DNA of 30,788 nt, from positions 1 to 30,788 of the forward strand of contig JAILIM010000013.1 in the NCBI GenBank assembly GCA_024695285.1. The letters are read 5' to 3'. Both the position numbers and the translations under genes were made by a program. This DNA is from Bacteroidales bacterium. Its GTDB lineage: Bacteria > Bacteroidota > Bacteroidia > Bacteroidales > UBA932. Below the pieces are notes generated by a model. That model made no database searches and was not told where the DNA came from. It saw nothing but the letters and a program-made list of their open reading frames with translations. Shown in pieces: positions 14,283-30,788 of this stretch (the first letter of the stretch is position 1; each line of letters starts with the position of its first letter).

Positions 14283-15608
14283 ATGGCCAACATCAAGAAA
14301 CTGACATTCGCCCAAATGTTCAATTTGAGCTTCGGATTCTTCGGAGTACAGATTGCATATGCGCTTCAGAGCGCCAATATTAGCCGTATCTTCGCAACCC
14401 TAGGCGCAGACCCCCACCAGCTGAGTTTCTTCTGGATACTGCCCCCTCTGATGGGCATGATAGTCCAGCCCCTCATCGGCAAGTGGTCCGACCGCACCTG
14501 GACCAGGATGGGCCGCCGCAAGCCCTACCTGCTCGTCGGTGCCGTCATCGCCGTGCTGGTGATGCTGTTCCTCCCAAAGGCCGGCTCGCTCAACCTTTCG
14601 ACCGCCTACGTGTTCCTGGGACTGAACGCCGCCATGTGGTTCGGCCTGTTCTCGCTGATTTTCCTTGACACCTCCATCAACGTGGCCATGCAGCCGTTCA
14701 AGATGATGGTGGGCGACATGGTCGGCGAGGAGCAGAAAGCCGAAGCCTACAGCATCCAGAGCTTCCTGTGCAACGCAGGCTCGCTGGTGGGCTACCTCTT
14801 CCCCATCTTCTTCACCTGGATAGGCATAGCGAACACCGCCCCCGAGGGTGTGGTCCCCGACAGCGTGATCTACAGCTTCTGGTGCGGCGCCGCCATCCTC
14901 ATCGCCTGCGTGCTCTACACCTTCCTGAAAGTGAAGGAAATGCCCCCGAAGGAGTATGCCGAGTTCCACGGCATCGACCAGGCCAAGGCCGAAGAAAAGA
15001 AAGAAGGCCTCTTCAAGCTCCTGCTGAAGGCCCCGAAGACCTTCTGGACCGTGGGCCTGGTGCAGTTCTTCTGCTGGGCTGCGTTCCTCTATATGTGGAC
15101 CTACACCAACGGTGCCATCGCCCGCAACTGCTGGGACACCACCGACGTCGCCTCCGCCGCCTACCAGGCCGCCGGCAACTGGGTGGGCGTGCTCTTCGCC
15201 GTGCAGGCCGTCGGCTCCATACTCTGGGCCCTGGTGATCCCCCGCTTCAAGAACCTCAAGCTCGCCTACGTGGTCAGCCTGCTCGCCGGCGCCGCGGGAT
15301 TCGCCTCAGTGATGTTCATCCACAACCAGTACCTGCTCTTCGGCAGCTACTTCCTGATCGGCTTCGCCTGGGCCGCCATGCTCGCCCTGCCCTTCACCTT
15401 CCTGACCAACGCCCTCGAAGGCAACCCCTACATGGGCAGCTACCTGGGCCTCTTCAACTGCACCATCTGCCTGCCGCAGATCGTGGCGGCAGCGACCGGC
15501 GGCGCCGTGATGAGCCTGGTGGGCGGCAGCCAGGGCACGATGCTCCTGCTCGCCGGAATCTTCCTGGTGCTCGGAGCCTGCAGCGTCAGCCTCGTCAAGA
15601 CCAAATAA
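14283..15608 (+). CDS. MFS sugar transporter, SLC45/GPH-like (maltose/maltodextrin type)
   Basis: The 441-residue protein has about twelve membrane spans and belongs to the major facilitator superfamily. Loop 2-3 reads GKWSDRTWTRMGRRKP (residues 66-81), the D-R-x-G-R-R-x-P signature of the SLC45/GPH-type sugar:cation symporters. Similar proteins adjacent to sus-type loci carry maltose or maltooligosaccharides across the inner membrane. Its position directly before susC, with 46 bases between and no terminator, supports a role in the last import step for starch fragments. The substrate is inferred from context. In the classical B. thetaiotaomicron sus locus no such transporter is part of the operon. 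Confidence 0.85.
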   Translation: MANIKKLTFAQMFNLSFGFFGVQIAYALQSANISRIFATLGADPHQLSFFWILPPLMGMIVQPLIGKWSDRTWTRMGRRKPYLLVGAVIAVLVMLFLPKAGSLNLSTAYVFLGLNAAMWFGLFSLIFLDTSINVAMQPFKMMVGDMVGEEQKAEAYSIQSFLCNAGSLVGYLFPIFFTWIGIANTAPEGVVPDSVIYSFWCGAAILIACVLYTFLKVKEMPPKEYAEFHGIDQAKAEEKKEGLFKLLLKAPKTFWTVGLVQFFCWAAFLYMWTYTNGAIARNCWDTTDVASAAYQAAGNWVGVLFAVQAVGSILWALVIPRFKNLKLAYVVSLLAGAAGFASVMFIHNQYLLFGSYFLIGFAWAAMLALPFTFLTNALEGNPYMGSYLGLFNCTICLPQIVAAATGGAVMSLVGGSQGTMLLLAGIFLVLGACSVSLVKTK

Positions 15609-15654: not shown

Positions 15655-18600
15655 ATGAAAAGGTTTATCACAGCAGTATCTATCTTGGTTTTCAGCCTGA
15701 TAGCTACTTCCGTATCCGCCCAGAACGGATACCGGATCAAAGGAGTCGTAGTCGATTCACAGGGGCCGGTGATCGGTGCCACCGTCATGGAAAAAGGCAC
15801 TACCACCGGAGCCCCGACGGGACTCGACGGCGATTTCGAATTGACCGTTTCCAGTGCAGATGCAGTAGTGGAAGTCAGCTGCATCGGTTATGCAACACAG
15901 ACTTTCACTGCAAGCCAGCTGCCTGCAAACATCCTTCTCGTGGAGGACACCGAGTTCCTTGACGACGTCGTGGTCATCGGCTACGGTACCGTCAAGAAGA
16001 GCGACCTCACCGGTTCCGTCTCCACGGTCAAGGCAGACGAGGTTAACAAGGGTGTCATCAGCTCCCCTGTGGACCTGCTCCGCGGCAAGACCGCAGGTGT
16101 CGTGGTCACAGCAGGTGACGGTATGCCCGGCTCTGCAGCGACCGTGCGTATCCGTGGCGGCGCTTCCCTGAGCGCAAGCACCACCCCGCTCTACGTCATC
16201 GACGGCCTGCCCGTGTCCAACGACGGCCTCGGCTCCATGGCCGACCCTATGGCCTCCATCAACCCTGAGGACATCGAGAGCTTCTCCGTGCTCAAGGACG
16301 CATCCGCAACCGCAATCTACGGTTCCCGTGCATCCAACGGCGTTATCGTGATCACGACCAAGAAGGGCTCCAAGACCGCACAGGCCATCCCTCAGGTCGC
16401 CGTCGACTTCACCAGCTCCCTCAACACCCTGGCCAAGTACAACCCGGTCATGGATGCCAAGGGGCTCCGCAGCCTGATCACCGCCGCCCTCGGCCCCGGC
16501 TCCTCCGCTGAAGCAGCCCTCGGCAACGCCGACACCAACTGGCAGAAGGAAATCTTCACCATGGCTCCCAGCTACGACGCCAACGTGTCCGTGAACGGCA
16601 AGATCGGCAGCTTCCTCCCCTACCGTGTTTCCGGCGGCTTCACCGAGCAGAACGGTACCCTCAAGGGCTCCAAGATGGACCGCGGTACCCTCTCCCTTAA
16701 CCTCTCCCCGAGCTTCTTCGACAAGCACCTCACCGTCAACCTGAACGGCAAGGGCGTGTATGCCAAGAACCAGTACGCCAACCAGGACGCCATCTGGGCC
16801 GCCAACCAGTTCGACCCCACGAAGCCCGTCAAGACCGACGGCCACCTCAACGGCTACACCACCTGGTATGACGCTGCAGGCAACATCAACACCATGGCCA
16901 CCCCCAACCCCGTGGCCCTTCTCGAAGGCAAGATCGACTACGGCAACACCTACCGTTTCCTCGGCAATACCCAGTTCGACTACAAAGTCCACGGCTTCGA
17001 AGACCTGAGGCTCAACCTCAACCTCGGCCTTGACTGGGCAAAGTCCAACAGCATAGTCGAATTCGTGCCCAACACCATCGCCTCCGTGCGCAGGACCACC
17101 GAGTCCGGCGGCGGTTCCCACAAGGACTACGACATTACCCGCAGGGACACCACCCTCGAGTTCTACGCCGACTACAACAAGACCTTCGCACAGAAGCACA
17201 ACGTCGACTTCATGGCCGGTTATTCATGGCAGCACTTCTGGAACAATTCCCACACCAAGGAGTACCGTATCTCCGACAAGCAGGAGTTCCAGAACACCGA
17301 AGGCCTCGGTGAGCTTTACCTCATCTCCTTCTTCGGCAGGGCCAACTACGGCTTCGACGACCGCTACCTGATCACTGCAACGGTTCGCGCCGACGGTACT
17401 TCCCGCTTCCAGAACAACAAGTGGGGTATCTTCCCGTCCGTGGCCCTCGGCTGGAACGTCAAGAACGAGAGCTTCCTGAAGAACGTCGAGCCCGTTTCCA
17501 CCGCAAAGGTGCGCCTCTCCTGGGGCGAGACTGGCCAGCAGGAAATCGGCGGCTACTACGACACCTTCGCCCAGTTCCTCCAGATCAACACCCCCGGTTC
17601 CTACTATTTCGTGAGCGGCAACGACTATGTTGCTCCTATTGCAGCGACTGCATATTCCGCCAACCTTAAGTGGGAGACCACCACGACCTACAACGCAGGT
17701 ATCGACTTCGGTCTCTGGAACGACAGGCTGACCACCAGCATCGATGTGTACAAGCGCGACACCCGCGACATTCTCAACACCATCCCGGTGCCGGCACTGA
17801 GCAACTTCACCAACCTGCTCCCCACCAACATCGGTTCCATGACCAACTACGGTTTCGAGATCAACCTCAACGCAGTTCTCATCGAGAAGCGTGACATGAG
17901 CTGGACCGCAGGCTTCAACATGGCCTACAACCACAATGAAGTGACCAAACTCACCGCCTCCGACGAGAATGCTGCAGGTATCGAAACCGGCGGCATCGGC
18001 AGCGGCACCGGCAACAACGTGCAGCTGATCCAGGTCGGTTACCCCCTGCATTCCTTCAACCTCTACCAGCAGGTCTACGACCCCAACGGCATGCCTATCT
18101 ACGGTGTGTATGTCGACCAGCCCACCGTGTCCTGGTACAGGGATGCAGCCGGCAACGAGACCACTGAGGCAGTCGATGCATCAGGCAAGAAGAACACCTT
18201 CATCGAGAAGCGTCCCGACGGCGTGATCAACGCCGACGACAGGCGCATGACCCACAGCGCCGACCCGACAATGACCTTCGGCTTCAACACCATGTTCACC
18301 TGGAAGAACTGGACGGCAGCCCTCTCCGGACACGCCGCCACCGGCAACTGGGTCTACTACGACGTCGCTTCCGGCCAGGAGCCTCTCATGGACCTCTGGA
18401 CCAACAGCTTCGTGAGCAACCGCCTGCAGAGCGCTACCAACTCCATGTTCCCGCAGGCCCAGTACTTCTCCGACTATTTCCTGCACGACGGTTCCTACAT
18501 CAAGCTCGACAACATCACTGTCGGCTACACCTTCCCGAAGCTCTTCAGCATCGTCCAGGACCGTCCCGCATCCCTCAATATCTTCGGCACCGTGCAGAAC

Positions 18601-18714
18601 GTCTGCACCATTTCGAAGTATCCCGGAATTGACCCTGAGGTTTACGGCGGCATCGACGGCAACGTCTATCCCCGTCCGCGCACCTTCATCCTCGGTCTCA
18701 AGTTCAACTTCTAA
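15655..18714 (+). CDS. susC: SusC-like TonB-dependent outer membrane transporter
   Basis: SusC imports oligosaccharides through the outer membrane using TonB energy and is lidded by SusD. The 1019-residue protein has a signal peptide (cleavage near SVSA-QNG, residue 22), a carboxypeptidase-regulatory-like domain (28-105, with GPVIGATVMEKGTTTGAPTGLDGDFEL), the Bacteroidota motif DDVVVIGYG (103-111), a plug domain to about residue 236 (VRIRGGASL, PLYVIDGLPV, SVLKDASATAIYGSRASNGVIVITT) and a 22-strand barrel ending in LGLKFNF with terminal Phe. It is followed by susD after 15 bases. Specificity for starch is inferred from SusD, SusE/F and SusG next to it. Confidence 0.96.
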   Translation: MKRFITAVSILVFSLIATSVSAQNGYRIKGVVVDSQGPVIGATVMEKGTTTGAPTGLDGDFELTVSSADAVVEVSCIGYATQTFTASQLPANILLVEDTEFLDDVVVIGYGTVKKSDLTGSVSTVKADEVNKGVISSPVDLLRGKTAGVVVTAGDGMPGSAATVRIRGGASLSASTTPLYVIDGLPVSNDGLGSMADPMASINPEDIESFSVLKDASATAIYGSRASNGVIVITTKKGSKTAQAIPQVAVDFTSSLNTLAKYNPVMDAKGLRSLITAALGPGSSAEAALGNADTNWQKEIFTMAPSYDANVSVNGKIGSFLPYRVSGGFTEQNGTLKGSKMDRGTLSLNLSPSFFDKHLTVNLNGKGVYAKNQYANQDAIWAANQFDPTKPVKTDGHLNGYTTWYDAAGNINTMATPNPVALLEGKIDYGNTYRFLGNTQFDYKVHGFEDLRLNLNLGLDWAKSNSIVEFVPNTIASVRRTTESGGGSHKDYDITRRDTTLEFYADYNKTFAQKHNVDFMAGYSWQHFWNNSHTKEYRISDKQEFQNTEGLGELYLISFFGRANYGFDDRYLITATVRADGTSRFQNNKWGIFPSVALGWNVKNESFLKNVEPVSTAKVRLSWGETGQQEIGGYYDTFAQFLQINTPGSYYFVSGNDYVAPIAATAYSANLKWETTTTYNAGIDFGLWNDRLTTSIDVYKRDTRDILNTIPVPALSNFTNLLPTNIGSMTNYGFEINLNAVLIEKRDMSWTAGFNMAYNHNEVTKLTASDENAAGIETGGIGSGTGNNVQLIQVGYPLHSFNLYQQVYDPNGMPIYGVYVDQPTVSWYRDAAGNETTEAVDASGKKNTFIEKRPDGVINADDRRMTHSADPTMTFGFNTMFTWKNWTAALSGHAATGNWVYYDVASGQEPLMDLWTNSFVSNRLQSATNSMFPQAQYFSDYFLHDGSYIKLDNITVGYTFPKLFSIVQDRPASLNIFGTVQNVCTISKYPGIDPEVYGGIDGNVYPRPRTFILGLKFNF

Positions 18715-18729
18715 TCCCACATCGCGAAT

Positions 18730-20442
18730 ATGAAAACATTGAAATATATTCTCGGAGTCATCGCTGCCTGCGCAGCATTCAGCTCCTGCGTGGGTGACCT
18801 CAACGTAACCCCTATCGACCCTAACGCCAACACCGTTGACAAGGTGCTGACCAGCCAGGCCGCGATGGATTCCTACATCTCCGGTGTCTATCTGGGCTTC
18901 GCCACCTCCGGTTACTATGGCAAGGACGGCGGCGCCAACATTTCCAACGTGGACGGCGGCGCCTCCCAGTATATCCGCGGTCTCTACCACCACTCCGAAC
19001 TCACCACCGACGAGAGCGTGTGCGGCTGGAACGACCAGACCATCAAGGATTTCCACTGGATGAACTGGGCCACCAACGACACCTTTATCTATGCTTTCTG
19101 GTCCCGTATCTTCATGCAGGTGGCATCCGCGAATGAATTCATCCGCCAGATGCGTCTCCTCAACGGAGTCGACGAGAACCTCAAGGCCCGCTATGTCGAC
19201 GAAGCCCGCGTGCTGCGCGCAATCGCCTACTACCACGCCATCGACAACTTCGGCAACGTGCCTTTCTCAACCGACGAGGACGTGATGGGTTCCATTCCCC
19301 AGCAGACCAAGAGGGCCGACCTCTACAACTGGCTTGAGAAAGAGCTCAAGTCCATCATCGACAACGGCAAGCTGCCCGAGGGACCTTCCGTCACCTACGG
19401 CCATGCCGGCATGGGTGCAGCGAAGTTCCTCCTCGCCAAGCTCTACCTCAACGCTGAAGTATTCTCCGGCACCGCCCAATGGCAGAAGTGCGCCGACGTG
19501 CTGAAGGACCTCATGGACGACGGCTACAGCCTCCACACCACCTCCGCCGGCAAGTACAGCGCCTATCAGGAGCTCTTCCTCGCCGACAACGACCGCTGCA
19601 CGGAAGAAATCATCTTCCCCGTCGAGCAGGATGGTCTGTACATCACCAGCTACGGTGTGACCAACTATCTCATCTTCGCTTCCACCGGCGGCCACATGAA
19701 TGTCAAGACCATCGGTATCTCCTCCGGTTGGGGCGGTCTCCGTACAACTCCGCAGTTCGTGGACAAGTTCACAGCCACCGACGCCCGCAACCTGTTCTAC
19801 GACACCGACAAATCCATGGCTGACATCAATGCCATGCCCGAGAAGCCCGAGGATGACCCCGATTCCTACGACGAGGCCAAGATCAAGGACCTGAAGGACA
19901 ACGGCAAGTATGACGAAGAGTGCAAGAAGCTCAGGGAAGCCAAGGAGAAGGCCCAGAAGGAAGAGTACCAGAAAAAGGATATCGACGATATCGGTTCCTT
20001 CTACAACGGCTTCGGCTTCATGAAGTTCCTCAATATGAAGAGCGACGGAACAGCTGCCAAGGAACCTGGCTCCGTCGATACCGACTTCCCGATGATGCGT
20101 TATGCAGACGTGCTCCTTATGGCTGCTGAGTGCCAGCTCCGCGGAGCGACCATCGACGGTCTTGCGGCCTACAACCAGGTCCGCCAGCGCGCCGGTGTGC
20201 CCACTGCAACTTCCATCTCCCTCCAGGATGTCCTCGACGAGCGCGGACGCGAACTCTATCAGGAGTGCTGGCGCCGCAACGACCTCGTCCGCTTCGGCCA
20301 GTTCACCACCAGCCAGTATGTCTGGCAGTGGAAGGGCAACGTGCGTGACGGCAGGGCTGTCGAAGACTTCAGGAACCTCTTCCCTATTCCCGACAGCGAC
20401 CGTCAGGCCAACTCCAACCTCGAGCAGAACCCTGGCTATTAA
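18730..20442 (+). CDS. susD: SusD-like starch-binding surface lipoprotein
   Basis: SusD binds glycan at the cell surface and closes over SusC. The 570-residue protein has a lipoprotein signal (AAFSSC, Cys20), TPR-like helices (DEARVLRAIAYYHAIDNFGNVPFSTDE) and the C-terminal family block (DTDFPMMRYADVLLMAAECQLRG, DERGRELYQECWRRNDLVRFGQF, FPIPDSDRQANSNLEQNPGY). The stretch YVWQWKGNVRDGRAVEDFRNLFPIP resembles B. thetaiotaomicron SusD closely, supporting starch as ligand. Residues about 362-418 form a highly charged Lys/Glu/Asp helix not needed for the fold. It lies between susC and the SusE/F-like gene with a gap of 12 bases on the latter side. Confidence 0.95.
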   Translation: MKTLKYILGVIAACAAFSSCVGDLNVTPIDPNANTVDKVLTSQAAMDSYISGVYLGFATSGYYGKDGGANISNVDGGASQYIRGLYHHSELTTDESVCGWNDQTIKDFHWMNWATNDTFIYAFWSRIFMQVASANEFIRQMRLLNGVDENLKARYVDEARVLRAIAYYHAIDNFGNVPFSTDEDVMGSIPQQTKRADLYNWLEKELKSIIDNGKLPEGPSVTYGHAGMGAAKFLLAKLYLNAEVFSGTAQWQKCADVLKDLMDDGYSLHTTSAGKYSAYQELFLADNDRCTEEIIFPVEQDGLYITSYGVTNYLIFASTGGHMNVKTIGISSGWGGLRTTPQFVDKFTATDARNLFYDTDKSMADINAMPEKPEDDPDSYDEAKIKDLKDNGKYDEECKKLREAKEKAQKEEYQKKDIDDIGSFYNGFGFMKFLNMKSDGTAAKEPGSVDTDFPMMRYADVLLMAAECQLRGATIDGLAAYNQVRQRAGVPTATSISLQDVLDERGRELYQECWRRNDLVRFGQFTTSQYVWQWKGNVRDGRAVEDFRNLFPIPDSDRQANSNLEQNPGY

Positions 20443-20454
20443 TAGATTATCGTT

Positions 20455-23400
20455 ATGAGAAAATTATTTAGCTACATACTTGCAGGCATCACTCTCCTGA
20501 GCGCCTCCGCCTGCGTCCACGAGCAGCCCGCCGTATTCGATCCGACCAAGGGCACTGCCCCCGTGCTCCTCAGCTACAATGTCAGCGAGGACGGCGTGAC
20601 CGCCGAATTCACTCCGGGTTCCATCGACATGGGCTTCAATAAGAATGTCCCCCCGTATCACTCTTTCGCCATCGTTGAACTCGACGGAGCGAAGGCCAAC
20701 AAGGTCATCCCTTCCAACGTTTCCGACGGTAAGATCAGCATCACCAAGACCACTCTTTCCAAGACCCTCATGTCCATGGGGAAAGCCGAAGGCAGTACTG
20801 CAGCCCTTAAAATGACCGTGCGCCTGTCCCTCCAGGATCCCACCAAGGACAGCGGCATCAACGGCTTCATCGACAGTAAGGACGTACTCACCATCGACTC
20901 CTGGGTCGTCGAGGTCCCCGTGCCTCAGGGCAACCCTTGGAAGGACTACACAGAGAAGAGTACCTGGAGCGTCATCGGCTCCATCGCCAGCACCGGCAAC
21001 TCATGGGGTAATGATGAACCCATGTTCACCGACGGCAGCAAGCACGTTGCCAAGGGCCTCAAGCTCGCGACCAGCGACCAGTTCAAGATCCGCAACAACG
21101 GCAGCTGGGACGACAACCGCGGTGCAACCGGCGACACCGAGCCGTTCATAGTAAGCCTCGGAGAGCCGTTGACGGCAAATCCCGGCGGAAAGAACCTCGC
21201 AGTTCCTGCAGACGGTGTCTATGACCTCCTCTACGATCCCGCAGCCGAGACCATCACCGTCACTGAAGCCTTCATGACCTATCCCGGCTTCGACAGCGTC
21301 TCCGAATGGAGCGTCATCGGCGCCATCGCCAGCTTCGACATGTCCTGGAACAAGGACATCGAGATGTCCACCGACGGCACCTGGCACGTAGCCGAGGGCG
21401 TTGAGCTCAAGGCTTCAGACCAGTTCAAGTTCCGCAAGAACCAGGATTGGGGCGACAACTTCGGCGCAACCGGTGACACCGAGCCGTTCATCGTCGCTCT
21501 CGACACCGAATATGAGGCCAACCCCGGCGGAAAGAACCTCGCAGTTCCCGAAGACGGTGTCTATGACCTCCTCGTGAATCCTGAAGCCAAGCTCTACAAG
21601 GTCGTGGCTACCCTCGGCGGTTCCTGCCACCTCGTAGGCGAAGGCGGTCCCGACACCCCTGAGCCCCCTGCATTCGAAGGCTGGGGCGTTACCGGATCCA
21701 TTGCCGGAGCCGGCATCAACTGGGACGGCGACATCGACATGACCGCATCCGGTTCGTTCTGGGTGGCACGCGACGTGAAACTCGCACCCAGCGACCAGTT
21801 CAAGTTCCGCAAGGCCCACGACTGGGGCGAGAACATCGGCGCAACCGGTGACGTCGAACCCTTCGTCGTCGAACTTGGTGCCAAGACCGCAGGCGCTGCT
21901 GGCGGCAAGAACCTCGCAGTTCCCGCTGAAGGCACCTACGACCTCTATCTCAATCCCGAAGAACTCAGCTTCTACGTCATGACAGCCGGCGAAGTGCCCG
22001 CTGAACTCGCAAGCTGGGGCGTGGTAGGCACCATCAACAGCTGGGGCGGCAGCGCCGACCTCGCAATGGTGGAAGAAAACGGCATGCTGGTACGCAAGAA
22101 CGTGGCCCTGAACACTGGTGACCAGTTCAAGATCCGCTACATGAGCAGCTGGGACGTCAACCGTGGCGCTCCCGGTGACGTGGAGCCCTTCATCATGGGC
22201 ACCGATCCCATCCAGGCAGTTCCCAACGGCAAGAACCTTGGCGTGGCAGCAGACGGCAACTACGATGTCTGGTATGACGCACTCAACGAAATCCTCTTCG
22301 TCGTGCCCGCCGGCACCGCACTCAGCTACTGGGGCGTGGTCGGCAACATCACCGGATGGGGCGGCGACCGCGCTGACTACATCATGTACAAGAGCGGCGA
22401 CTTCTATGCCGTCAAGGGCATCGAGCTGAATGAAGAAAGCCAGTTCAAGATCCGCTACAACAGCGACTGGGCCGTCAACCGCGGCGCTCCAGGCGACGTG
22501 GAGCCCTTCAAGGTTGACGCCGGTTCCGTGGTCGAAGCCACCCAGAACGGCAAGAACCTCGGAGTCAACGTTGCAGGCAAGTACGACATCTACTACAACG
22601 CTGCCGAAGAGAAGCTCTACGTGATGGGCGAAGGCAACGATCCTTCCGGAGCCGTGACTCCCGAGCCTCCCACCCCTGAGAAGCCTACCGCATGGTCCAT
22701 CGTCGGAACCATCGAAAGCTCCAGCTGGGGCAAGGACTTCGACCTCACCAACACCGAAGGCGACATCTGGAAGTATGAAGGCCTGACCGTGACCGACACC
22801 GATGAATTCAAGATCCGTGCGAACCACGACTGGGGCACCAGCGTCGGCGGCGCCGAAGAGAATGAAGACAGCGGCATCGATCCCGTGGGCAATCCCTACA
22901 AGGTGTTCAGGCCGACCATCGGCACTGCATTCGCAGCCGGCGGACTCAATATCCGCATCGCCGTGGCAGGAACCTACAACGTCACTTTCGACTATGCAGC
23001 CAAGACCATCCTCATCGAGGCCGGCGCTCCCGCAGCAGGTGCAAAGGTCATCAACACCGCTGACGAACTGATTGCATATCTTGAGAATCCCACTGAGGAT
23101 GCCGAACTCGGCGCCGACATCAACATCAGCGGCAAGCAGATGCTTCCCGCTCCCGAGATGACCGGCAACTTCGACGGCAAGGACCACAAGATCACCGTCT
23201 CCCTCGGATTCCCGCTCTTCCCGCTTGTCCGCGGCGACATCAAGAATCTCACCATCGACGGCAGCTTCAACGCAACCTGCGGAGCTGACAAGACCGTTCT
23301 TGCCCCTATCGGCAAGAGCTACGGCACAATCCAGAACGTGATCAACAGGGCCACCGTGACTCTGTCCGGTCCTGCCGGACAGGGCGGTGCCGAGACCAAG

Positions 23401-24633
23401 AACGGTGCTATCGCCGCCGGCGTTGTCGGTGAGGGATACGGACCAGTCAAGTACTGCAAGAATTTCGGTGAGATATCCGCTCTTGCTTCCGGAAAGGACA
23501 CCTGGGCCATTTTTGTCGGCGGTATCGCCGGCGTAGTTGGTGATGTTGTCGAAGGCTGCGCCAACCACGGCGAAGTCAAACTCGTGGCCGGTTCTCCTCT
23601 CGGGCGCACCAAAGGCCTGACCGAGGTCTCAATGAAGTATGATCCCGTTGCATCCGTTGCCGGTATCGTGGTTTACGCTGTAAGCGATGCGACCCACGCG
23701 GTTACCGTGATGGACTGCGAGAACAACGCCAACGTCAGCTTCACCTACGACAACCTCCACGACAAGAGCGCGGCCGTGAGCCGTTCTCCGGTAGCAGGTA
23801 TCGTTGCCAACAGCGGCGGTGACATCACCAACTGCCACAACAGCGGCAACATCCTCGCCAAGATGGTGGCCTCCGACCGCAGCAAGGCATATGCCGACAT
23901 CAACATCATCCTGCACGCTGCAGGTGTCCAGGGCTCCGACTACTTCGTGAAGAAGATAAAGTCCACCGTCGACCAGAACGAGACAACCCTCTACAACTGT
24001 TCGAACACAGGTGATATCATTGCCGATTCCGACATGACGAAGTCCAACAACACCATCGGCGGCGTGTCCGCATGGCCTTGTGCAGAATCCGCTTCCGTGA
24101 CCGAAATCAAGGGTTGCACCAACAGCGGTAATCTCTATGTCTCCGGCCTTCTCAAGATCCGCGCTGGCGGTATCGCAGGCGGCACCAACAACATCGACGG
24201 CTGCAAGAACACCGGCAGCATCTATGTTGAAAGCGCCGACAAGAGCTCCGTCTTCGGCCTCATCAACGGTTTCCACACCCAGACCCACAGCCTGAAGAAC
24301 TGCGAAGCTAACGGCACCATTGAGGCCAAGAAGGAAGTCAGCGGCCTCGGAGGCATCTGCGGCGGCGTCGGCAATGCTGAGAACACTATCTGCGAAGGCT
24401 GCAAGGTGTTTGCCCACCTCTACGGTGGCGGCACCGTCCAGTGCGGCCTCATCGTCGGACACCTCAACGGCAACACCAAGAACATCACCATCGGCACCCC
24501 CGATAGCCCCGTGACTGTGAACGGTTCCGTGGATGGTGTCACTGCAAACGCCGACAACTACATGTCCCTGATCCAGAAAGCCACCAACTACACCGAAGGT
24601 GTCCACACCTTCAACGCAGTCTTCGGCAACTAG
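20455..24633 (+). CDS. giant SusE/SusF-like lipoprotein: six starch-binding-type modules plus C-terminal beta-helix
   Basis: This 1392-residue surface lipoprotein (lipobox SASAC, Cys20) occupies the susE/F position after susD. An N-terminal SusE-like domain (about 25-160) is followed by six repeats at about 169-272, 283-386, 408-512, 519-620, 624-726 and 745-856. Each has a W-x-[VI]-x-G opening, [DE]xFK[IF]R and a following Trp; the first five also have G-[AT]-[TP]-G-D-x-EPF and GKNL-x-V. This pattern fits the SusE/SusF starch-binding modules. The sixth is divergent and has an insertion. Residues 862-1392 hold at least nine rungs of C-x-N-x-G-x-[IVL] type (Cys at 1001, 1035, 1088, 1127, 1182, 1221, 1250, 1283, 1316), as in GLUG-type beta-helix proteins. 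SusE has two modules and SusF three, so this is a large expansion. Starch binding is inferred; the role of the helix is unknown. Confidence 0.88.
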   Translation: MRKLFSYILAGITLLSASACVHEQPAVFDPTKGTAPVLLSYNVSEDGVTAEFTPGSIDMGFNKNVPPYHSFAIVELDGAKANKVIPSNVSDGKISITKTTLSKTLMSMGKAEGSTAALKMTVRLSLQDPTKDSGINGFIDSKDVLTIDSWVVEVPVPQGNPWKDYTEKSTWSVIGSIASTGNSWGNDEPMFTDGSKHVAKGLKLATSDQFKIRNNGSWDDNRGATGDTEPFIVSLGEPLTANPGGKNLAVPADGVYDLLYDPAAETITVTEAFMTYPGFDSVSEWSVIGAIASFDMSWNKDIEMSTDGTWHVAEGVELKASDQFKFRKNQDWGDNFGATGDTEPFIVALDTEYEANPGGKNLAVPEDGVYDLLVNPEAKLYKVVATLGGSCHLVGEGGPDTPEPPAFEGWGVTGSIAGAGINWDGDIDMTASGSFWVARDVKLAPSDQFKFRKAHDWGENIGATGDVEPFVVELGAKTAGAAGGKNLAVPAEGTYDLYLNPEELSFYVMTAGEVPAELASWGVVGTINSWGGSADLAMVEENGMLVRKNVALNTGDQFKIRYMSSWDVNRGAPGDVEPFIMGTDPIQAVPNGKNLGVAADGNYDVWYDALNEILFVVPAGTALSYWGVVGNITGWGGDRADYIMYKSGDFYAVKGIELNEESQFKIRYNSDWAVNRGAPGDVEPFKVDAGSVVEATQNGKNLGVNVAGKYDIYYNAAEEKLYVMGEGNDPSGAVTPEPPTPEKPTAWSIVGTIESSSWGKDFDLTNTEGDIWKYEGLTVTDTDEFKIRANHDWGTSVGGAEENEDSGIDPVGNPYKVFRPTIGTAFAAGGLNIRIAVAGTYNVTFDYAAKTILIEAGAPAAGAKVINTADELIAYLENPTEDAELGADINISGKQMLPAPEMTGNFDGKDHKITVSLGFPLFPLVRGDIKNLTIDGSFNATCGADKTVLAPIGKSYGTIQNVINRATVTLSGPAGQGGAETKNGAIAAGVVGEGYGPVKYCKNFGEISALASGKDTWAIFVGGIAGVVGDVVEGCANHGEVKLVAGSPLGRTKGLTEVSMKYDPVASVAGIVVYAVSDATHAVTVMDCENNANVSFTYDNLHDKSAAVSRSPVAGIVANSGGDITNCHNSGNILAKMVASDRSKAYADINIILHAAGVQGSDYFVKKIKSTVDQNETTLYNCSNTGDIIADSDMTKSNNTIGGVSAWPCAESASVTEIKGCTNSGNLYVSGLLKIRAGGIAGGTNNIDGCKNTGSIYVESADKSSVFGLINGFHTQTHSLKNCEANGTIEAKKEVSGLGGICGGVGNAENTICEGCKVFAHLYGGGTVQCGLIVGHLNGNTKNITIGTPDSPVTVNGSVDGVTANADNYMSLIQKATNYTEGVHTFNAVFGN
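20959..23022 (+). repeat. six tandem module-sized repeats within the SusE/F-like gene
   Basis: Repeats lie at 20959-21270, 21301-21612, 21676-21990, 22009-22314, 22324-22632 and 22687-23022. Copies 1 and 2 share a stretch of about 48 bases with few mismatches (from 21181 and 21523, offset 342). Copies 4 and 5 are also close (offset 321). Copies 1-3 and 4-5 form two sub-groups, which suggests stepwise duplication. Confidence 0.85.
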
Positions 24634-24684: not shown

Positions 24685-24713
24685 GGTTTTCAGCGGAGTA
24701 TTTATTATTATTG
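24682..24713 (+). promoter_or_regulatory. probable promoter of susG
   Basis: TTTG (24682-24685), a 20-base spacer and TATTATTG (24706-24713, one mismatch to TAnnTTTG) lie just after the terminator and 21 bases before the susG ATG. The TTTG shares bases with the terminator's T-run. Confidence 0.5.
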
Positions 24714-24734
24714 TGGGTTGTAGAACACTGCATT

Positions 24735-26720
24735 ATGAAACGGATTTTTTTACTTATAGCAATGCTGGCGGTCGCGCTGGGATGCAATCCGGTGAATCCG
24801 GACAACGGCGGCGGCAATGGCAACGGTAATGGTGAAGGGCAGGGCGAAGGCCAGGGCGGCGATACACAGCCCGAGACCGGCGAGAAACTGGCCGATATAA
24901 CCTACCAGCTGAATGTTTACAGCTTCGCCGACTCCGACGGCGACGGCTGGGGCGACATCAAGGGCATTACCCAGCACCTGGATTATCTCGAGAGCCTTGG
25001 CGCCTCAGCTCTCTGGCTCTCCCCCATCCAGACCTCCGCATCCTACCACGGCTACGACGTCCTGGACTATAACGCCATCAATCCCAAGCTCGGCTCCGAA
25101 GCCGACTTCCAGGATCTCATCGACAAGGCCAGGGCGAAGGGCATCGACATTTATATGGACTATGTCCTCAACCACTCCGGCCGCGGGGAATGGTTCAACG
25201 CAGCTATATCTGATGCGAACAGCCCCTACCGCAGCTACTATGTGCTGTCAGACAATCCCACGGCAGACGTTGCAGCCGGCAAGGTGGACAATTACGGCGG
25301 CGCCAAGAACCCCGGCATGGGCACCTGGCACACCGCCGCCGGCGGCGATCTCGGCTACAAGGGCCGTCTCCATTTCAAGCTCGATTGGGGCAAGAAGACC
25401 ATCACCGTGACCGAAACCACGGCGGCAGCCCAGTCATCCAACCCTTCCGCCAACAAGTGGCTCTGGATAGGCAGCGCCGGCCTCGTGGGCCTATACCCAT
25501 CCGGCACTGACATCCACGAAATCACCATCGACGTCGACACCGACTGGGGCTTCCTCGTGCGCTCCTCCAGCACATCCTGGGACAACGGCACCAAGTGGGG
25601 CGGCAACGGCACCAGCCTGACCTTCGGCCAGCCCTACTCCATCAACAGCAGCACCGCCGCAGACATCACCTTCGGCGGCACGAGCATCTGGTACTTCGCC
25701 AGCTTTGACCAGTCCATGCCCGACCTCAACTACGGCCCCTACGCCCAAGCAGACGTATCCGAAGCCTTCAAGAGTCTCGCGGTGAGCGCCGACAAATGGA
25801 TAGACATGGGCGTGAACGGCCTGAGGCTCGACGCCGTGATCTGGATCTACCAGAACCAGACGGCCCCCAACGTGAGCTTCCTCAAGAAATGGTACGACCG
25901 CTGCAACACTAAATACAAATCCCGCGGCGGCAAGGGCGACATCTACATGGTCGGCGAGGCCTGGTGCGACAATGCCGAGAAGATGGCGCCATACTACGAA
26001 GGCCTGCCATCCAACTTCAATTTCTATTACTGGTACACGCTCAAAGACCGCATAAACAACGCCAAGGGTGACGATTTCGCGCAGACCGTACTCTACTTCC
26101 AGAGCCTGTTCAAGAAGTACCGTGCCGACTTCATCGACGCCATCAAGCTCACCAACCACGATGAGGACCGCGCAGCCCAGGACCTCGGCAGGAACGTTGC
26201 AAAGGAGAAGCTGGCGGCCGCAGTGCTCCTGACCTCCCCCGGCAAGCCCTTCATCTACCAGGGCGAGGAACTTGGCTACTGGGGCTCGAAGAGCAAAGGA
26301 GACGAATACATACGCACTCCTATTAAATGGACGCGCAGCGGCTCCGTAGCCTCTGCAGCCCTTGGCGGCAAGGTCGACAACGCAATGCTCAGCGCCGACA
26401 TATCCGTCGAAGCCCAGACAGACAACGACAGCTCCATACTGAAAGTTTACCGCTCCTTCGCCAAGGCGCGCAACAGTTATAAAGCCCTTGCCAAGGGTAA
26501 AATGACTGCTGTCTCCACCAGCAGCTCCGCCATTGCCGCATGGACGATGTCCTGTGACGGGCAGACCGTCCTTGTGGTACATAACTTCTCCGCAGCCACC
26601 GCGAACGTACAAATGTCCGGCATGAAGCTCACCGACTGCATCGTGTCCAACGGCAACTGCTCCGCCAGCGGCACCGCATTGACCATCGGGTCCTACGCTT
26701 CCGCAGTCTTCCTGCAGTAG
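24735..26720 (+). CDS. susG: SusG-like GH13 surface alpha-amylase with inserted CBM58-type domain
   Basis: SusG cuts starch at the cell surface. The 661-residue lipoprotein (ALGC, Cys17) has a Gly/Asn/Glu/Gln linker (25-42), then the GH13 barrel. Conserved regions are visible: I DYVLNH (142-147), II GLRLDAV with nucleophile Asp366, III VGEAW with acid/base Glu408, and IV TNHDED with Asp476. Residues about 213-325 (from HFKLDW through GFLVRSSSTSWDNGTKWG to WYFASF) interrupt the catalytic domain exactly where B. thetaiotaomicron SusG carries CBM58, and resemble it. A C-terminal beta domain follows. I chose the ATG at 24735 because it starts the signal peptide. The uvrC ATG follows its TAG stop with no gap. 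Confidence 0.95.
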   Translation: MKRIFLLIAMLAVALGCNPVNPDNGGGNGNGNGEGQGEGQGGDTQPETGEKLADITYQLNVYSFADSDGDGWGDIKGITQHLDYLESLGASALWLSPIQTSASYHGYDVLDYNAINPKLGSEADFQDLIDKARAKGIDIYMDYVLNHSGRGEWFNAAISDANSPYRSYYVLSDNPTADVAAGKVDNYGGAKNPGMGTWHTAAGGDLGYKGRLHFKLDWGKKTITVTETTAAAQSSNPSANKWLWIGSAGLVGLYPSGTDIHEITIDVDTDWGFLVRSSSTSWDNGTKWGGNGTSLTFGQPYSINSSTAADITFGGTSIWYFASFDQSMPDLNYGPYAQADVSEAFKSLAVSADKWIDMGVNGLRLDAVIWIYQNQTAPNVSFLKKWYDRCNTKYKSRGGKGDIYMVGEAWCDNAEKMAPYYEGLPSNFNFYYWYTLKDRINNAKGDDFAQTVLYFQSLFKKYRADFIDAIKLTNHDEDRAAQDLGRNVAKEKLAAAVLLTSPGKPFIYQGEELGYWGSKSKGDEYIRTPIKWTRSGSVASAALGGKVDNAMLSADISVEAQTDNDSSILKVYRSFAKARNSYKALAKGKMTAVSTSSSAIAAWTMSCDGQTVLVVHNFSAATANVQMSGMKLTDCIVSNGNCSASGTALTIGSYASAVFLQ

Positions 26721-28523
26721 ATGGACGTACGCGAAAAGATCGAGCTGCTGCCCCACAGTCCCGGAGTGTATCGTTACTACGACGACAAGGGGACGGTGAT
26801 CTACGTGGGCAAGGCGAAAGACCTTTTCAAGCGCGTGCACCAGTACTTCGTGGACCCGGACCGCCTGACCGTGAAGACACGGCTCCTGGTGGCCCGTATC
26901 GCTGACGTGCAGTATTCCGTGGTGGACACGGAGGCGGACGCGCTGCTGCTGGAGAACAACCTGATCAAGCAGTACAAGCCCCGCTACAACATACTGCTGA
27001 AGGACAGCAAGACGTATCCGTGGATATGTGTGACTTCGGAACCCTTTCCGAGGGTATTCCTGACGCGGCGGGTGGAAAAGAACGGCTCCCGTTACTTCGG
27101 GCCATACAGCTCCGCGCTGCACGCCCGGGGGCTGCTGGAGTTCTTCGGCCGCAACTGGCCCCTGCGCAGCTGCCGGCTGAAAATCGACTCCGACGCCATT
27201 CTCCGGGGCAAGTACCGCCCGTGCCTGGACTACCACATCGGCCGCTGCCGGGGCTGCTGCGTGGGGAAGGTCTCGGAGCAGGAATACGACTCGTGGATAG
27301 ATGAAATCGTCCATCTGCTCAAAGGCGGCGTGAGTGAGGTCATAGGCAAGTACAAGGCCGCCATGCAGCAGGCCTCCGACGCCCTCGATTTCGAGACGGC
27401 GCAGTTCTGCAAGCAGCGCGTGGAGGCCCTGCAGAAGCACTACGCCAAATCCATAATCACGGCCGCGGGCGAGCGGGACCTGGACGTGTTCTCGCTGGTC
27501 TTCGACGGCCCTGACGCCTTCGGCAACTTCCTGCGTGTGCGCGGCGGTGCCATCATCCAGAGCCTCAACCTCGGCTTCAAGATGCAGATCGAAGAGGAGC
27601 AGGCGTCGGTGCTGAGCAGCTTCATAGCAGAAATCGAGAGCAAGTTCGGGGAGCTGGCGCATGAGATCGTGGTGCCGTTCCTGCCTGACGTGGAACTGGA
27701 CGGCGTCACGTTCACCATCCCGGCCCGCGGCGACAAGCTCTCGCTGCTGGAACTCAGCGCGAAGAACGCCAAGGAGTTCCATTTCAACACGCTGAAGCAG
27801 CGGGAGCACACCGACCCGGACGCCTTCCGCGAAGGGGTGATGGAGGAGCTGCGCAAAGCCCTGGGGATGAAGGAGTTGCCGCGCCACATCGAATGCTTCG
27901 ACAACTCCAACACCCAGGGCACCAATCCGGTGGCCTCGTGCGTCGTGTTCCGTAACGCGGAGCCGTCGAAGAAGGACTACCGGCGCTTCAAGGTGAAGAC
28001 TGTCATAGGCGCCAACGACTACGCATCCATGAAGGAAATAGTGAACCGCAGGTATTCACGCATGCTGGAGGAGGCGCCGGACGACCTGCCGCAGCTGGTG
28101 GTGATTGACGGCGGGAAGGGGCAGCTGGGCTTCGCCTGGCAGGCAATATGCGAGCTGGGGCTGCAGGACAAGTTCATGGTCGTGGGCCTGGCTAAGCGGC
28201 TGGAAGAAGTGATACGTGTGGGTGACCCTTATCCTTTGTTTTTAGACCGTAATTCGCAGGCGCTGAAGTTGCTGCAGCAGGCGCGTGACGAGGCGCACCG
28301 CTTCGGCATAACCTTCCACCGGCAGCTGCGGCGCAAGGCTGAAGTCCACAGCACGCTGAGGGATATTCCTGGTGTGGGGCCGCGCACGGAAGAGCGTCTG
28401 TTACTGCACTTTGGCTCGCTCGCCCGCATCCTGGCAGCGCCTGAAGCGGACGTGGCGGCGCTGGTGGGACCGAAGCTTGCAAAGCTGATTAAGGAAAAGG
28501 GCGGAGGTTGCAAATCTCAATAA
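26721..28523 (+). CDS. uvrC: excinuclease ABC subunit C
   Basis: UvrC makes both incisions in nucleotide excision repair. The 600-residue protein has the N-terminal GIY-YIG nuclease ([31 protein letters not shown], residues 13-43), a Cys-rich block ([15 protein letters not shown]), a UVR motif that binds UvrB (about 205-240), the RNase H-like second nuclease ([22 protein letters not shown] and [10 protein letters not shown]) and a C-terminal helix-hairpin-helix pair ([36 protein letters not shown]). Its start codon directly abuts the susG stop, so some of its transcription probably comes from the susG promoter or from inside susG. Confidence 0.97.
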
Positions 28524-28891: not shown

Positions 28892-29132
28892 GTGCCCCGC
28901 CGCCCCCCGTTCAAGTGGCCACGGGCGGCCACTGGTTTGAGGTTGCAACCTCTCCTCCGGCCGCTACCCTGTCATTCTGACTTCCTCCTTTTCATTCTGA
29001 GCGCCCCCTGTCATTCTTTGATAATCTCCTTGATACGGCAAACAAGTAATTCAGGAAGAGAAATCCATTCTCTTCGGGAGCGGAGGGCGAAATATGTGGA
29101 GAATACAATTATTTTCACTATAATTGTATGCT
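28892..29132. other. intergenic region between acpP and the GH53 gene with short repeats
   Basis: I see no gene here. It holds a 6-bp-stem hairpin (28915-28920/28927-28932), a perfect 14-base palindrome GAGGTTGCAACCTC (28939-28952), three copies of TCATTCT at 28972, 28992 and 29011 (spacing 20 and 19 bases), and a perfect 9-bp inverted repeat just before the GH53 start. The palindrome shares GGTTGCAA with the inverted repeat at the acpP promoter. Confidence 0.6.
29103..29129 (+). promoter_or_regulatory. perfect 9-bp inverted repeat upstream of the GH53 gene
   Basis: ATACAATTA (29103-29111) and TAATTGTAT (29121-29129) are exact reverse complements with a 9-base gap (18 bases centre to centre). 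The second arm ends 3 bases before the ATG at 29133 and includes TATAATTG, a one-mismatch -7 element. It could be an operator or a hairpin that covers the start of translation. Confidence 0.45.
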
Positions 29133-30260
29133 ATGCTTAGAGTAACCACATTGATTGCGGCGGCGCTGGTCCTGGCGGCGTGCGGCAAGGCCGGAGGAGA
29201 GGCTGGGGGCAAGCCCGGCGGAGAATCCGGAAATAACACTGAAAACCCCTCCCAGGAGCAGCCGGCGGCAGTCCAGACGCCCGGTTTCGCCAAGGGCGCG
29301 GACATCAGCTGGACCTCCGAGATGGAAAAGTCCGGCAAGACCTTCAAGAAAGCCGACGGCACGCCAGCCGATATCTTCGAAGTCCTCAAGGACTGCGGCA
29401 TCAACTCCATCCGCCTCCGCGTGTGGGTGAACCCCACGGGCGGCTGGAGCGGCAAGGACGACGTGGCCGCGCTGGCCCTTCGCGCCGCCAAGGCCGGAAT
29501 GGCCCTGATGATAGACTTCCACTACAGCGACTTCTTCGCCGACCCTTCGCGGCAGACCTTCCCTAAGGACTGGGAGGCAGACAAGGCCGATGCCGCCAAA
29601 ACTGCGGCCCGCATCAAAGCCCACACCAACGAAGTTCTCAACACCCTGAAAGACAAGGGCGTCAGCCCCGCGTGGATACAGATAGGCAACGAGACCCGCA
29701 ACGGCTTCCTCTGGCCCCTCGGGCAGCTCTGGGACAACTCCGGCGACATCTCCGGCGGCTGGGCCCGCTTCGTCCAGCTCTACAACGCCGGCTACGACGC
29801 CGCCAAGGCAGTGTTCCCGCAGGCCGCCGTGATGCCCCACCTCAACAACGCCTGGGAAGACAACGACTGGTGGTTCAAGAAGTTCAAGGCCCAGGGCGCC
29901 AGGTTCGACGCCGTCGCCCTGTCGCACTACCCCCAGACCGAGAGCGGCAAGACCGCCGAACAGGTGAACTCCAGCGCCCTCGCCAGGATCTCCGCCCTCG
30001 CCTCAGCGTACGGCGTGCCGGTCTACGTGGCCGAAGTGGGGGTGAAGCCCGCCACCGAAAGCGCCTCCGCCGCAGTGCTGAAGGCCTTCATGGACGGGGT
30101 GCGCAAAATATCCGCCTGCAAGGGTGTATTTTATTGGGAACCTGAAGTTTACGGTGGGTGGAAGCCGGCCGTGTACAGCACCCTCGGCTGGGGTTCCTAC
30201 GACATGGGCGCATTCCTCTCCGATGGCCGCCCCTCCAGCATCATGAACGTATTCAAGTAA
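29133..30260 (+). CDS. GH53 endo-beta-1,4-galactanase lipoprotein
   Basis: GH53 enzymes cut beta-1,4-galactan, the side chain of pectic rhamnogalacturonan I and arabinogalactan. The 375-residue protein is a lipoprotein (VLAAC, Cys17) with a Gly/Glu-rich linker (20-45) and a single catalytic barrel. Family motifs are GADISW at the start, GINSIRLRVWVNP, MIDFHYSDFFADP, WIQIGNET with acid/base Glu187, and VYVAEVG with nucleophile Glu301; the end reads GGWKPAVYST-LGWGSYDMGAFL. The ATG at 29133 gives a proper signal peptide. It precedes a GH13 lipoprotein by 3 bases and is probably co-transcribed with it. Lipid anchoring suggests action at the cell surface or periplasmic face. Confidence 0.93.
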   Translation: MLRVTTLIAAALVLAACGKAGGEAGGKPGGESGNNTENPSQEQPAAVQTPGFAKGADISWTSEMEKSGKTFKKADGTPADIFEVLKDCGINSIRLRVWVNPTGGWSGKDDVAALALRAAKAGMALMIDFHYSDFFADPSRQTFPKDWEADKADAAKTAARIKAHTNEVLNTLKDKGVSPAWIQIGNETRNGFLWPLGQLWDNSGDISGGWARFVQLYNAGYDAAKAVFPQAAVMPHLNNAWEDNDWWFKKFKAQGARFDAVALSHYPQTESGKTAEQVNSSALARISALASAYGVPVYVAEVGVKPATESASAAVLKAFMDGVRKISACKGVFYWEPEVYGGWKPAVYSTLGWGSYDMGAFLSDGRPSSIMNVFK

Positions 30261-30263
30261 CAT

Positions 30264-30788
30264 ATGAAAAAGATATTCTTTGCAGCCGCAGCACTGCTCA
30301 CCCTCGTCTGCTGCACCCCAAAATCTGCACATCCGGAATGGACCTACGACAGCGTCGTCTATGAGGTCAACATCCGCCAGTTCAGCCCCGAAGGCACATT
30401 CAAGGGCGTGGAGGCCCAGCTCCCCCGCCTCAAGGAACTCGGAGTCGACGTGCTCTGGCTGATGCCCATGTACAAGATCGGCGAAGTGGAGCGCAAGGGC
30501 TCCCTGGGCTCCTACTACGCCATCTCCGACTACTGCGCAGTGAACCCCGAATTCGGCACGATGGAGGACTTCGAGGCCCTGCTGGGCGCCGCCCACGCAC
30601 AGGGATTCAAGGTCATCCTCGACTGGGTGGCCAACCAGACCTCCCCGGACAACGTGTGGATGACCACCAAGCCCGCCGACTTCTACGAGCGCGACTCCCT
30701 GGGCAACGCCATCTGGGAGTACGACTGGACCGACACCCGCAGCCTAAACTACGAGAACAAAGAGGTCTGGAAGGCTCAGGACGAAGCC
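30264..30788 (+). CDS. GH13 alpha-amylase family lipoprotein, N-terminal part
   Basis: The 175 visible residues start with a lipoprotein signal (LTLVCC, Cys16 or Cys17) and enter a GH13 barrel: WTYDSVVYEVNIRQFSPEGTFKGVEAQLPRLKELGVDVLWLMPM, SYYAISDYCAVNPEFGTMEDFEALL and region I DWVANQ (residues 120-125). Region I normally ends in His (NH); here residue 125 is Gln, encoded by CAG. The nucleophile and acid/base regions lie beyond the right edge. It follows the GH53 gene by 3 bases. It is likely an alpha-glucan hydrolase, but the missing His leaves activity open. Confidence 0.9.
   Translation, partial: MKKIFFAAAALLTLVCCTPKSAHPEWTYDSVVYEVNIRQFSPEGTFKGVEAQLPRLKELGVDVLWLMPMYKIGEVERKGSLGSYYAISDYCAVNPEFGTMEDFEALLGAAHAQGFKVILDWVANQTSPDNVWMTTKPADFYERDSLGNAIWEYDWTDTRSLNYENKEVWKAQDEA

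Follow-up and report, generated by a model that had tools for sequence, protein, structure and literature searches.

The window analysed here is a stretch of 30,788 nucleotides, and a single gene within it (protein P0001), lying directly after susC and susD in a starch locus with susG, encodes a lipoprotein in which six tandem X25 modules precede a predicted C-terminal β-helix. This protein probably tethers starch multivalently, carries an interaction cap that is exchangeable and independent of cargo, and is the sole surface glycan-binding protein of its starch locus. The features of the region and of the protein, all on the + strand, are as follows.

14283..15608, +, MFS sugar transporter, a 5' neighbour within the syntenic starch cluster (Pfam MFS_1; syntenic in loci L001, L002 and L005)
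15655..18714, +, SusC (TIGR04056, E 5.5e-225)
18730..20442, +, SusD (Pfam SusD_RagB, above cut-off)
20455..20514, +, lipoprotein signal peptide of P0001, ending SASAC, with lipid-bearing Cys20 (from the sequence; lipobox read by eye)
20536..20913, +, predicted β-sandwich, possibly FN3/Ig-like, as N-terminal spacer (residues 28-153)
20965..21261, +, X25 module 1 (residues 171-269)
21307..21603, +, X25 module 2 (residues 285-383), inside the 7rpy match (model residues 284-513)
21682..21978, +, X25 module 3 (residues 410-508)
22015..22302, +, X25 module 4 (residues 521-616), modelled in residues 515-1392
22330..22623, +, X25 module 5 (residues 626-723), modelled in residues 515-1392
22693..23016, +, X25 module 6 (residues 747-854), the furthest from module 1
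23050..24627, +, predicted C-terminal β-helix of GLUG type (residues 866-1391)
24735..26720, +, SusG-type GH13 amylase lipoprotein with CBM58 (Pfam Alpha-amylase, SusG_CBM58, SusG_C)
26721..28523, +, UvrC (TIGR00194, E 5e-154), which also adjoins susG in L002
29124..30260, +, GH53 family gene (Pfam Glyco_hydro_53)
30264..30788, +, 5' part of another GH13 gene, truncated at the window edge (Pfam Alpha-amylase)

The reading frame at 20455-24633 (+) translates to 1392 residues and sits between susD and susG of the starch-uptake operon, so that both the length and the susE/F position given by an earlier sequence-only reading hold. There are 12 bases between the SusD gene and the start of this gene, and 77 between its end and the listed GH13 ORF, whose product has SusG_CBM58 and SusG_C domains. 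(This ORF is listed from 24711; the ATG at 24735, read by eye, is its likely start.) The SusD gene matches the SusD model NF033071 at E 2.3e-110, yet falls under that model's own cut-off. The source bacterium is a relative of rumen Bacteroidales, and the P0001 gene has no match in a plasmid collection.

SusE and SusF are textbook starch tethers. Those of B. thetaiotaomicron (4fch/4fem and 4fe9) share with P0001 the slot after susD, a lipoprotein signal, tandem X25 modules, and a starch operon; however, they have two and three modules and are encoded by two genes, whereas P0001 has six modules in one gene together with a β-helix cap. The proposal that the modules are of the SusE/SusF type is borne out by AlphaFold2 models: their best structure matches are SusF, SusE, and Sca5 X25-2, in keeping with tandem X25 β-sandwiches. 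In particular, Foldseek with the C-half model (residues 515-1392) gives SusF 4fe9 as the top match (1e-8), followed by Sca5 X25-2 7rpy (1.4e-6) and SusE 4fch (7.4e-4), and with the N-half model it gives 7rpy (1.7e-5). The pTM values of the two models are 0.63 and 0.43, at which the arrangement of the modules is not readable, and module 6 is modelled at lower confidence (ten-residue pLDDT means of 43-80). The modules are 39-62% identical to module 1 and, in structure alignments, 11-21% identical to SusE. The FKxR pattern claimed for all of them is present as FK[IF]R in 6/6, while the claimed GKNL pattern is found in five and reads GLNI in the sixth.

P0001 has no family match in Pfam or NCBIfam at E 0.1. 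Unlike SusE and SusF, it does not match Pfam SusF_SusE (PF16411) or SusE (PF14292) at this threshold, and because there is no profile match of P0001 itself, it is not filed in these families; among its relatives, P0003 matches PF14292 and the L005 gene matches PF16411 (E 3e-18). Sequence searches of the PDB with P0001, A4, and A5 gave no match at E 1. With the six-module profile A1 there were three at E 10, namely 7rpy (0.046) and two unrelated chains (0.32 and 0.38); neither SusE nor SusF came up in these searches. Consequently, the identity of the modules rests on structure, on this weak 7rpy profile match, and on the named relatives.

The 7rpy protein, R. bromii Sca5 X25-2/Sas20 domain 2, has the same module fold as P0001, although it is part of a Gram-positive amylosome in which a module pair shares one site. 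A profile alignment places a Lys, a Trp, and an Asn of the P0001 modules on Sca5 K654, W661, and N687 (numbering assigned in this analysis), whose roles in the X25-maltotriose site are set out in PMC9112005. The equivalents of Lys654, Trp661 (the second Trp), and Asn687 are kept in 6/6 modules, and among 812 modules of 121 proteins the Lys and the Trp are present in 812 and the Asn in 722. The aromatic platform of the putative starch site is therefore retained as to its second Trp; the first Trp (the W620 position) is in register in only four of the six modules, being shifted in modules 4 and 5. In addition, the N684 position is Asn in two modules and Gly in four, and module 6 has Ser in place of the Asn of WxxN. 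Intact site residues do not prove binding, because isolated Sca5 X25 lobes failed to bind maltooligosaccharides, as PMC9112005 reports.

From these features we infer starch binding, avidity, and surface exposure, as well as any function of the cap, in the following way. A lipid on Cys20 would anchor P0001 in the outer membrane, from which the β-sandwich spacer would project it outward. Each of the six X25 modules would weakly grip short α-1,4-glucan through Trp stacking and Lys/Asn hydrogen bonds, and through avidity the six would jointly retain starch for SusG and SusCD, such that P0001 alone would do the job of SusE plus SusF in B. thetaiotaomicron. The β-helix at the far end of the chain would form a cap that is portable and exchangeable. 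Its conserved loops would most likely recognise not starch but a partner or surface shared by several lipoproteins of nutrient capture.

Among the 120 listed of 256 matches, the architecture recurs in relatives. Six X25 modules and a close helix are present in P0002, P0003, P0005, and P0006 (85%, 65%, 61%, and 59% identity, respectively), and the same layout stands at the same place in two separate MAGs (L001 and L002), which have the order MFS-SusC-SusD-gene in common, with SusG next in L002. (The L001 gene is almost identical to P0002, at 1375/1391 residues, and the L002 gene to P0005, at 1350/1351, so that these do not count as separate evidence.) Since the layout occurs in both MAGs, with partly different middle modules and with no long near-identical repeat in the gene, an assembly fusion of two genes is unlikely and was rejected. 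Collapse of internal repeats is likewise unlikely, because the longest intragenic repeat family (131 nt, 5 copies) is only 64-77% identical to its reference copy. Judged by sequence matches, undescribed relatives are common in metagenomes. The statement that no protein with this layout has been described agrees with our search of the open-access literature, among the matches listed: openly licensed papers yielded nothing joining SusE with β-helix, lipoprotein, and Bacteroidetes, and nothing on GLUG with β-helix in Bacteroid- taxa, the one GLUG-motif match concerning an archaeon.

Sequence comparison indicates reassortment of blocks (N-terminal, modules, helix) among alleles that are nearly identical. 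The modules that P0001 shares with P0003 are 85-97% identical. Between the window and L002, the N block, modules 1-2, and the helix are 70-88% identical; modules 3-6 are 25-34% identical when aligned collinearly and 37-55% by best local match. It is unlikely that this mosaic arose artificially, through misassembly of short metagenome reads across modules that the genes share. Modules as similar as those of P0001 and P0003 could mislead an assembler, and the swapped P0003, P0004, P0006, P0009, and P0010 were compared as proteins alone, P0009 being called partial by a source. However, the window, L001, and L002 have operon flanks in common, yet their blocks differ, and the third-codon identity at conserved residues between the window and L001 differs among modules 4-6 (302/332), the helix (311/409; Fisher p 5e-8 versus modules 4-6), and SusC (786/950; p 2e-4).

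The predicted β-helix at the C-terminus is present in the AlphaFold2 model of residues 515-1392, where the C-terminal part forms a parallel β-helix. The count of "nine or more" C-x-N-x-G-x-[IVL] rungs was overstated: the C-terminal 532 residues contain six exact rungs, or eight including two degenerate ones, compared with a mean of 0.034 and a maximum of 2 in 10,000 shuffles of these residues. The suggested kinship with GLUG is upheld through relatives, P0122 and P0010, which pass Pfam GLUG (PF07581); P0001 itself does not match it at E 0.1. P0122, a close helix relative, barely passes (20.9 versus 20.5 bits), and P0010 passes at E 8.3e-8, its end being 36% identical to P0001 over 544 aa, modules partly included. 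The nearest solved folds are the β-helices of Gram-positive IgA1 proteases (7uvk, 6xja) and B. ovatus BACOVA_03286 (3n6z). In the S. pneumoniae IgA1 protease, according to PMC7695701, a helix of ~290 residues gates the protease active site; the P0001 helix is C-terminal and spans ~526 residues, and P0001 has neither a peptidase family match nor an HExxH sequence that would place it with the M26 IgA1 proteases. A foreign origin of the helix was considered from base composition and rejected, as its G+C of 0.582 is inside the range of its neighbours; its GC3 of 0.749 is the lowest of seven segments, a small difference from the others (0.764-0.830).

Helices of this kind were sorted into 22 close and 55 distant members (78 proteins minus the partial P0008). 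The close set, 57-92% identical to the helix of P0033, has seven fixed motifs, all present in P0001 (LAPIG, SPLGR, MKYxP, YAVSD, NIILH, DQxET, and WPxxE). These occur in 22/22 close helices, from which they were themselves picked and of which four (P0124-P0127) look nearly alike; among the 55 distant helices, six of the seven occur in none and WPxxE in 29. The conservation may thus be partly due to common ancestry. A further candidate, SNN, was dropped, being absent from P0123, P0128, and P0129 and present in several distant helices.

The close subfamily is not confined to starch proteins. Its 22 members among the matches listed have at least five kinds of front end, including X25x6, X25x2, BACON, BACON-LRR, and others, and in the set of 21 (additionally without P0128, which is under the 700-bit line) the helix is the chain end in 21/21. 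(Helix matches per genome number 6-21, which are places, several of which may share one gene; at most four candidates per genome were scored in one scan and at most six in another.) In the lipoproteins P0033, P0122, and P0030, a helix of the same subfamily as that of P0001 follows not X25 modules but a BACON or BACON-LRR front end; the P0033 and P0030 helices are 61-63% identical to that of P0001, and the P0122 helix is 92% identical to that of P0033. On the sequence evidence, then, the helix is a rare and exchangeable part, occurring also on surface proteins that lack starch modules.

The sequence-only reading had offered the helix as a second glycan-binding surface, a scaffold for SusG, or a stalk, and each of these is less likely than a cargo-independent interaction cap. 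It seems rather unlikely that the helix works alongside the six modules as another surface for binding starch or glycans. In its favour, and counting against a cargo-independent cap, 11/21 close helices are on X25 proteins, so a starch-related role is possible. However, the other 10/21 are on proteins without X25, and P0033, which has BACON and a close helix, is encoded in locus L006 beside an OB-fold protein and two nuclease-type genes; the presence of the subfamily on BACON, BACON-LRR, and nuclease-cluster proteins makes a starch surface or a SusG scaffold less likely. In addition, 20/20 fetched loci with long arrays (below) lack the helix, and a shared β-helix fold shows no function. Parallel β-helices are common in long surface proteins, and an end cap could protect a free end, which would suit a passive, ligand-free rigid stalk or end cap with merely structural loops. 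This, too, is rather improbable: it is weakened because coil positions are invariant as often as strand positions in 21 close helices (74/272 and 62/241), the seven motifs are unchanged throughout the close set, and the expected place for a stalk is between anchor and modules, not at the terminus.

The long array, as judged from sequence, is common among relatives, and the helix is the unusual part. In 20/20 loci of the same genus fetched by similarity to P0001 (L099-L118; same-strand frames >=180 aa), a single helix-less gene with 5-9 X25 modules fills the slot after susC-susD, showing that the long array is independent of the helix; a susG-like gene is next in 19/20, and an N-terminal block like that of P0001 (32-50% identity) is present in 18/20. 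This choice of loci favours the one-gene form. The genus also has a two-gene form: the G005 locus comprises MFS (87%), SusC (46%), SusD (34%), a 378-aa PF16411 gene, a 680-aa two-module gene, and SusG (58%). In G002, PF16411 finds a fragment at a contig start, followed by a susG-like gene, and so second starch loci exist in both genomes. Short PF16411 frames (379-389 aa) are present in 5/101 genus genomes (G005, G310, G322, G340, and G374); in the six helix genomes searched, none of the matches listed covered P0003 residues 1-385. A merger of SusE and SusF into a single gene in this lineage is quite unlikely. One gene does occupy the slot of both in B. thetaiotaomicron, and the two-gene form and the short PF16411 frames in the genus raise the odds a little, but the fetched loci have one-gene arrays throughout (with the bias just stated), and the module identities given above fit the spread of one module as well as they fit a merger.

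Returning to the preferred reading of a starch tether with an interaction cap, a tentative and on balance doubtful extension is that the close helix is a portable docking head, dockerin- or adhesin-like, on the free end of nutrient lipoproteins of uncultured Bacteroidales, exchanged by recombination. If true, lipoproteins that handle starch, nucleic acid, or other nutrients would bear it, otherwise unrelated uptake systems would be linked through a single common partner or surface, and alleles would swap it by recombination at module borders. For the lineage, many loci replace SusE/SusF with one array of 5-9 modules, which provides a natural series for avidity tests, and the two-gene form survives beside them. 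A portable, predicted β-helix part with strictly conserved loops is common to Bacteroidales lipoproteins of different cargo, and the putative partner of this cap, once found, would tell whether there is a physical link at the cell surface between the uptake systems for starch, nucleic acids, and other nutrients.

The reading frame at 20455-24633 (+) is open over 1392 residues, with the coordinates and length that the sequence-only reading had given, and its product (P0001) carries six X25 modules (SusE/SusF-type) and a predicted C-terminal GLUG-type beta-helix. Its neighbourhood is as follows.

14283-15608, MFS transporter, upstream of the gene
15655-18714, SusC, upstream
18730-20442, SusD, upstream
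ORF 24711-26720 (likely ATG 24735), SusG-type GH13 with CBM58, downstream
Past the SusG-type GH13, UvrC, downstream
29124-30260, GH53 (galactanase family) gene, between UvrC and a GH13 gene
Downstream of the GH53 gene, second GH13 gene, its start only in the window

The same MFS-SusC-SusD-six-module order occupies L001:11594-21584, and a susG-like gene was not found after the six-module gene within the fetched DNA of this locus. In locus L003 a GH13 gene directly follows susG, whereas in the window UvrC and GH53 precede the second GH13 gene.

In Sca5 X25-2, a solved module of Ruminococcus bromii, PMC9112005 lists K654, W661, W620, N684, and N687 as maltotriose contacts. When these residues are placed on the modules via profile alignment (numbered according to the distance between the two Trp), the Lys of FKxR, the next Trp, and the Asn of GKN align with K654, W661, and N687, respectively. 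All three are present in 6/6 P0001 modules; among 812 modules in 121 proteins (the best 120 of 256 hits plus the helix piece P0121), Lys and Trp are found in all 812 and Asn in 722, with Asp in 90. Trp occupies the W620 position in 4/6 P0001 modules and lies a few residues off in modules 4 and 5; these two have Asn at the N684 position, and the remaining four have Gly. Since that source reports no binding by single Sca5 lobes, the kept site residues do not constitute proof of binding.

The C-terminal helix had been credited with nine or more C-x-N-x-G-x-[IVL] rungs; the count falls to 6 exact and 8 loose, against a mean of 0.034 in shuffled sequence. A search seeded with the helix of P0033, a BACON lipoprotein, yielded 78 proteins, of which 22 are close (at least 57% identity to P0033) and 55 are distant, while one, P0008, is partial. 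The 21 close helices with a bit score >700 have front ends with six X25 modules (5), two (5), one (P0007, a count that reflects a listed sequence beginning inside the array), or none (10, including BACON proteins, a BACON-LRR protein, P0028, and P0123). Other loci bearing close or distant helices include:

L006:4748-19011, in a row, TonB-receptor-type gene, three BACON lipoproteins, BACON Endonuclease_NS, Exo_endo_phos
L028:3621-7523, L032:7190-11413, and L034:4503-8321, distant GLUG-type helices on proteins of 1272-1407 aa

The three L006 lipoproteins are P0033 with its close helix, one with GLUG, and one with OB-fold hits, and the stretch resembles a locus for scavenging nucleic acids outside the cell. 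More distant helices in the same genomes lie on calcineurin-like phosphoesterases, FN3, LRR, and BACON proteins; those of L028, L032, and L034 precede the phosphoesterase domains (MetallophosN/C). In L005 the helix is on a two-X25 gene whose adjoining SusC and SusD share only 32% and 25% identity with those of the window; therefore, the cap (the helix) was either attached to starch proteins in two separate lineages or passed from one lineage to the other.

Blocks are also reassorted among relatives. P0002 and P0004 have N-terminal (N) blocks that are 99% identical and helices that differ, while the helices of P0002 and P0003 agree at 97% and their N blocks show no detectable match; the N blocks of P0006 and P0010 (95%) and of P0003 and P0009 (99%) are followed by differing helices and C-terminal parts, respectively, P0009 being labelled partial by a source. 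Beyond starch, residues 1-215 of P0122 are 99% identical to the gene adjoining P0033, and its helix is 92% identical to P0033's and 30% to that of P0033's L006 neighbour. Some of these metagenome proteins could be chimeras, but the three operon contigs (window, L001, and L002) argue that this does not hold for every one. Between the window and L001, DNA identity is 98% in module 6, 79-82% in the helix, and 91% in SusC; third-codon identity at conserved residues is 302/332 in modules 4-6, 311/409 in the helix (Fisher p = 5e-8 against modules 4-6), and 786/950 in SusC (2e-4). Against L002, a similar operon, modules 3-6 are 25-34% identical (collinear alignment) and other blocks 70-88%.

In the 21 close helices, 62/241 strand and 74/272 coil positions are invariant. 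LAPIG, SPLGR, MKYxP, YAVSD, NIILH, DQxET, and WPxxE each occur in 22/22 close helix proteins and NGFHTQ in 20/22; among the 55 distant ones WPxxE occurs in 29 and the rest of the eight in none, a contrast partly built in because the motifs were chosen from the close set. Their constancy across front ends, over a range of 57-92% overall identity to P0033, does not stem from that choice. These sequences suggest that close helices have a common ligand or partner. That the helix is a passive stalk seems unlikely, and a starch surface similarly improbable; most likely, the putative role of the cap is to bind something common to several lipoproteins.

X25 arrays are widespread in this lineage. Of 101 genomes sampled from the genus to which G001 belongs, 65 have a match to P0001, in its modules or its helix. 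The 121 proteins carry seven (53), eight (30), six (21), nine (6), ten (1), two (5), one (1), or no (4) X25 modules. In 20/20 loci fetched by module and N-terminal match, a choice biased toward the one-gene form, susD is immediately followed by a gene with 5-9 X25 modules and no helix; a susG-like gene comes next in 19/20, and the remaining locus ends at a contig edge. The susG-like GH13 genes of L107, L110, L111, L112, L116, L117, L118, and L005 themselves encode one or two X25-type modules. A two-gene form also exists:

L119:3660-18679 (G005), classic two-gene starch locus: MFS, SusC, SusD, a gene of 378 aa, a two-module gene of 680 aa, and SusG; beyond SusG, GH13, then another SusG-like gene

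The close helix of G005 is carried by a BACON protein. Short PF16411 frames of 379-389 aa occur in 5/101 genus genomes. Merger of susE and susF into one gene is rather doubtful, even with its odds raised because this locus was found in the same genus.

Taken singly, X25 arrays, GLUG-type helices, and BACON-helix lipoproteins either belong to known kinds or, though undescribed, already occur in databases; among the matches listed, no description of the X25-array-plus-helix layout was found in open-access literature. SusE and SusF of B. thetaiotaomicron are two proteins, whereas here a single product may fill both roles, as a putative multivalent starch tether anchored in the outer membrane and serving SusG and SusCD. 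PMC7618045 reports the B. thetaiotaomicron SGBPs to be immobile starch centres round which transporter and amylase assemble; by analogy, the 20455-24633 product would have the same starch-centre role.
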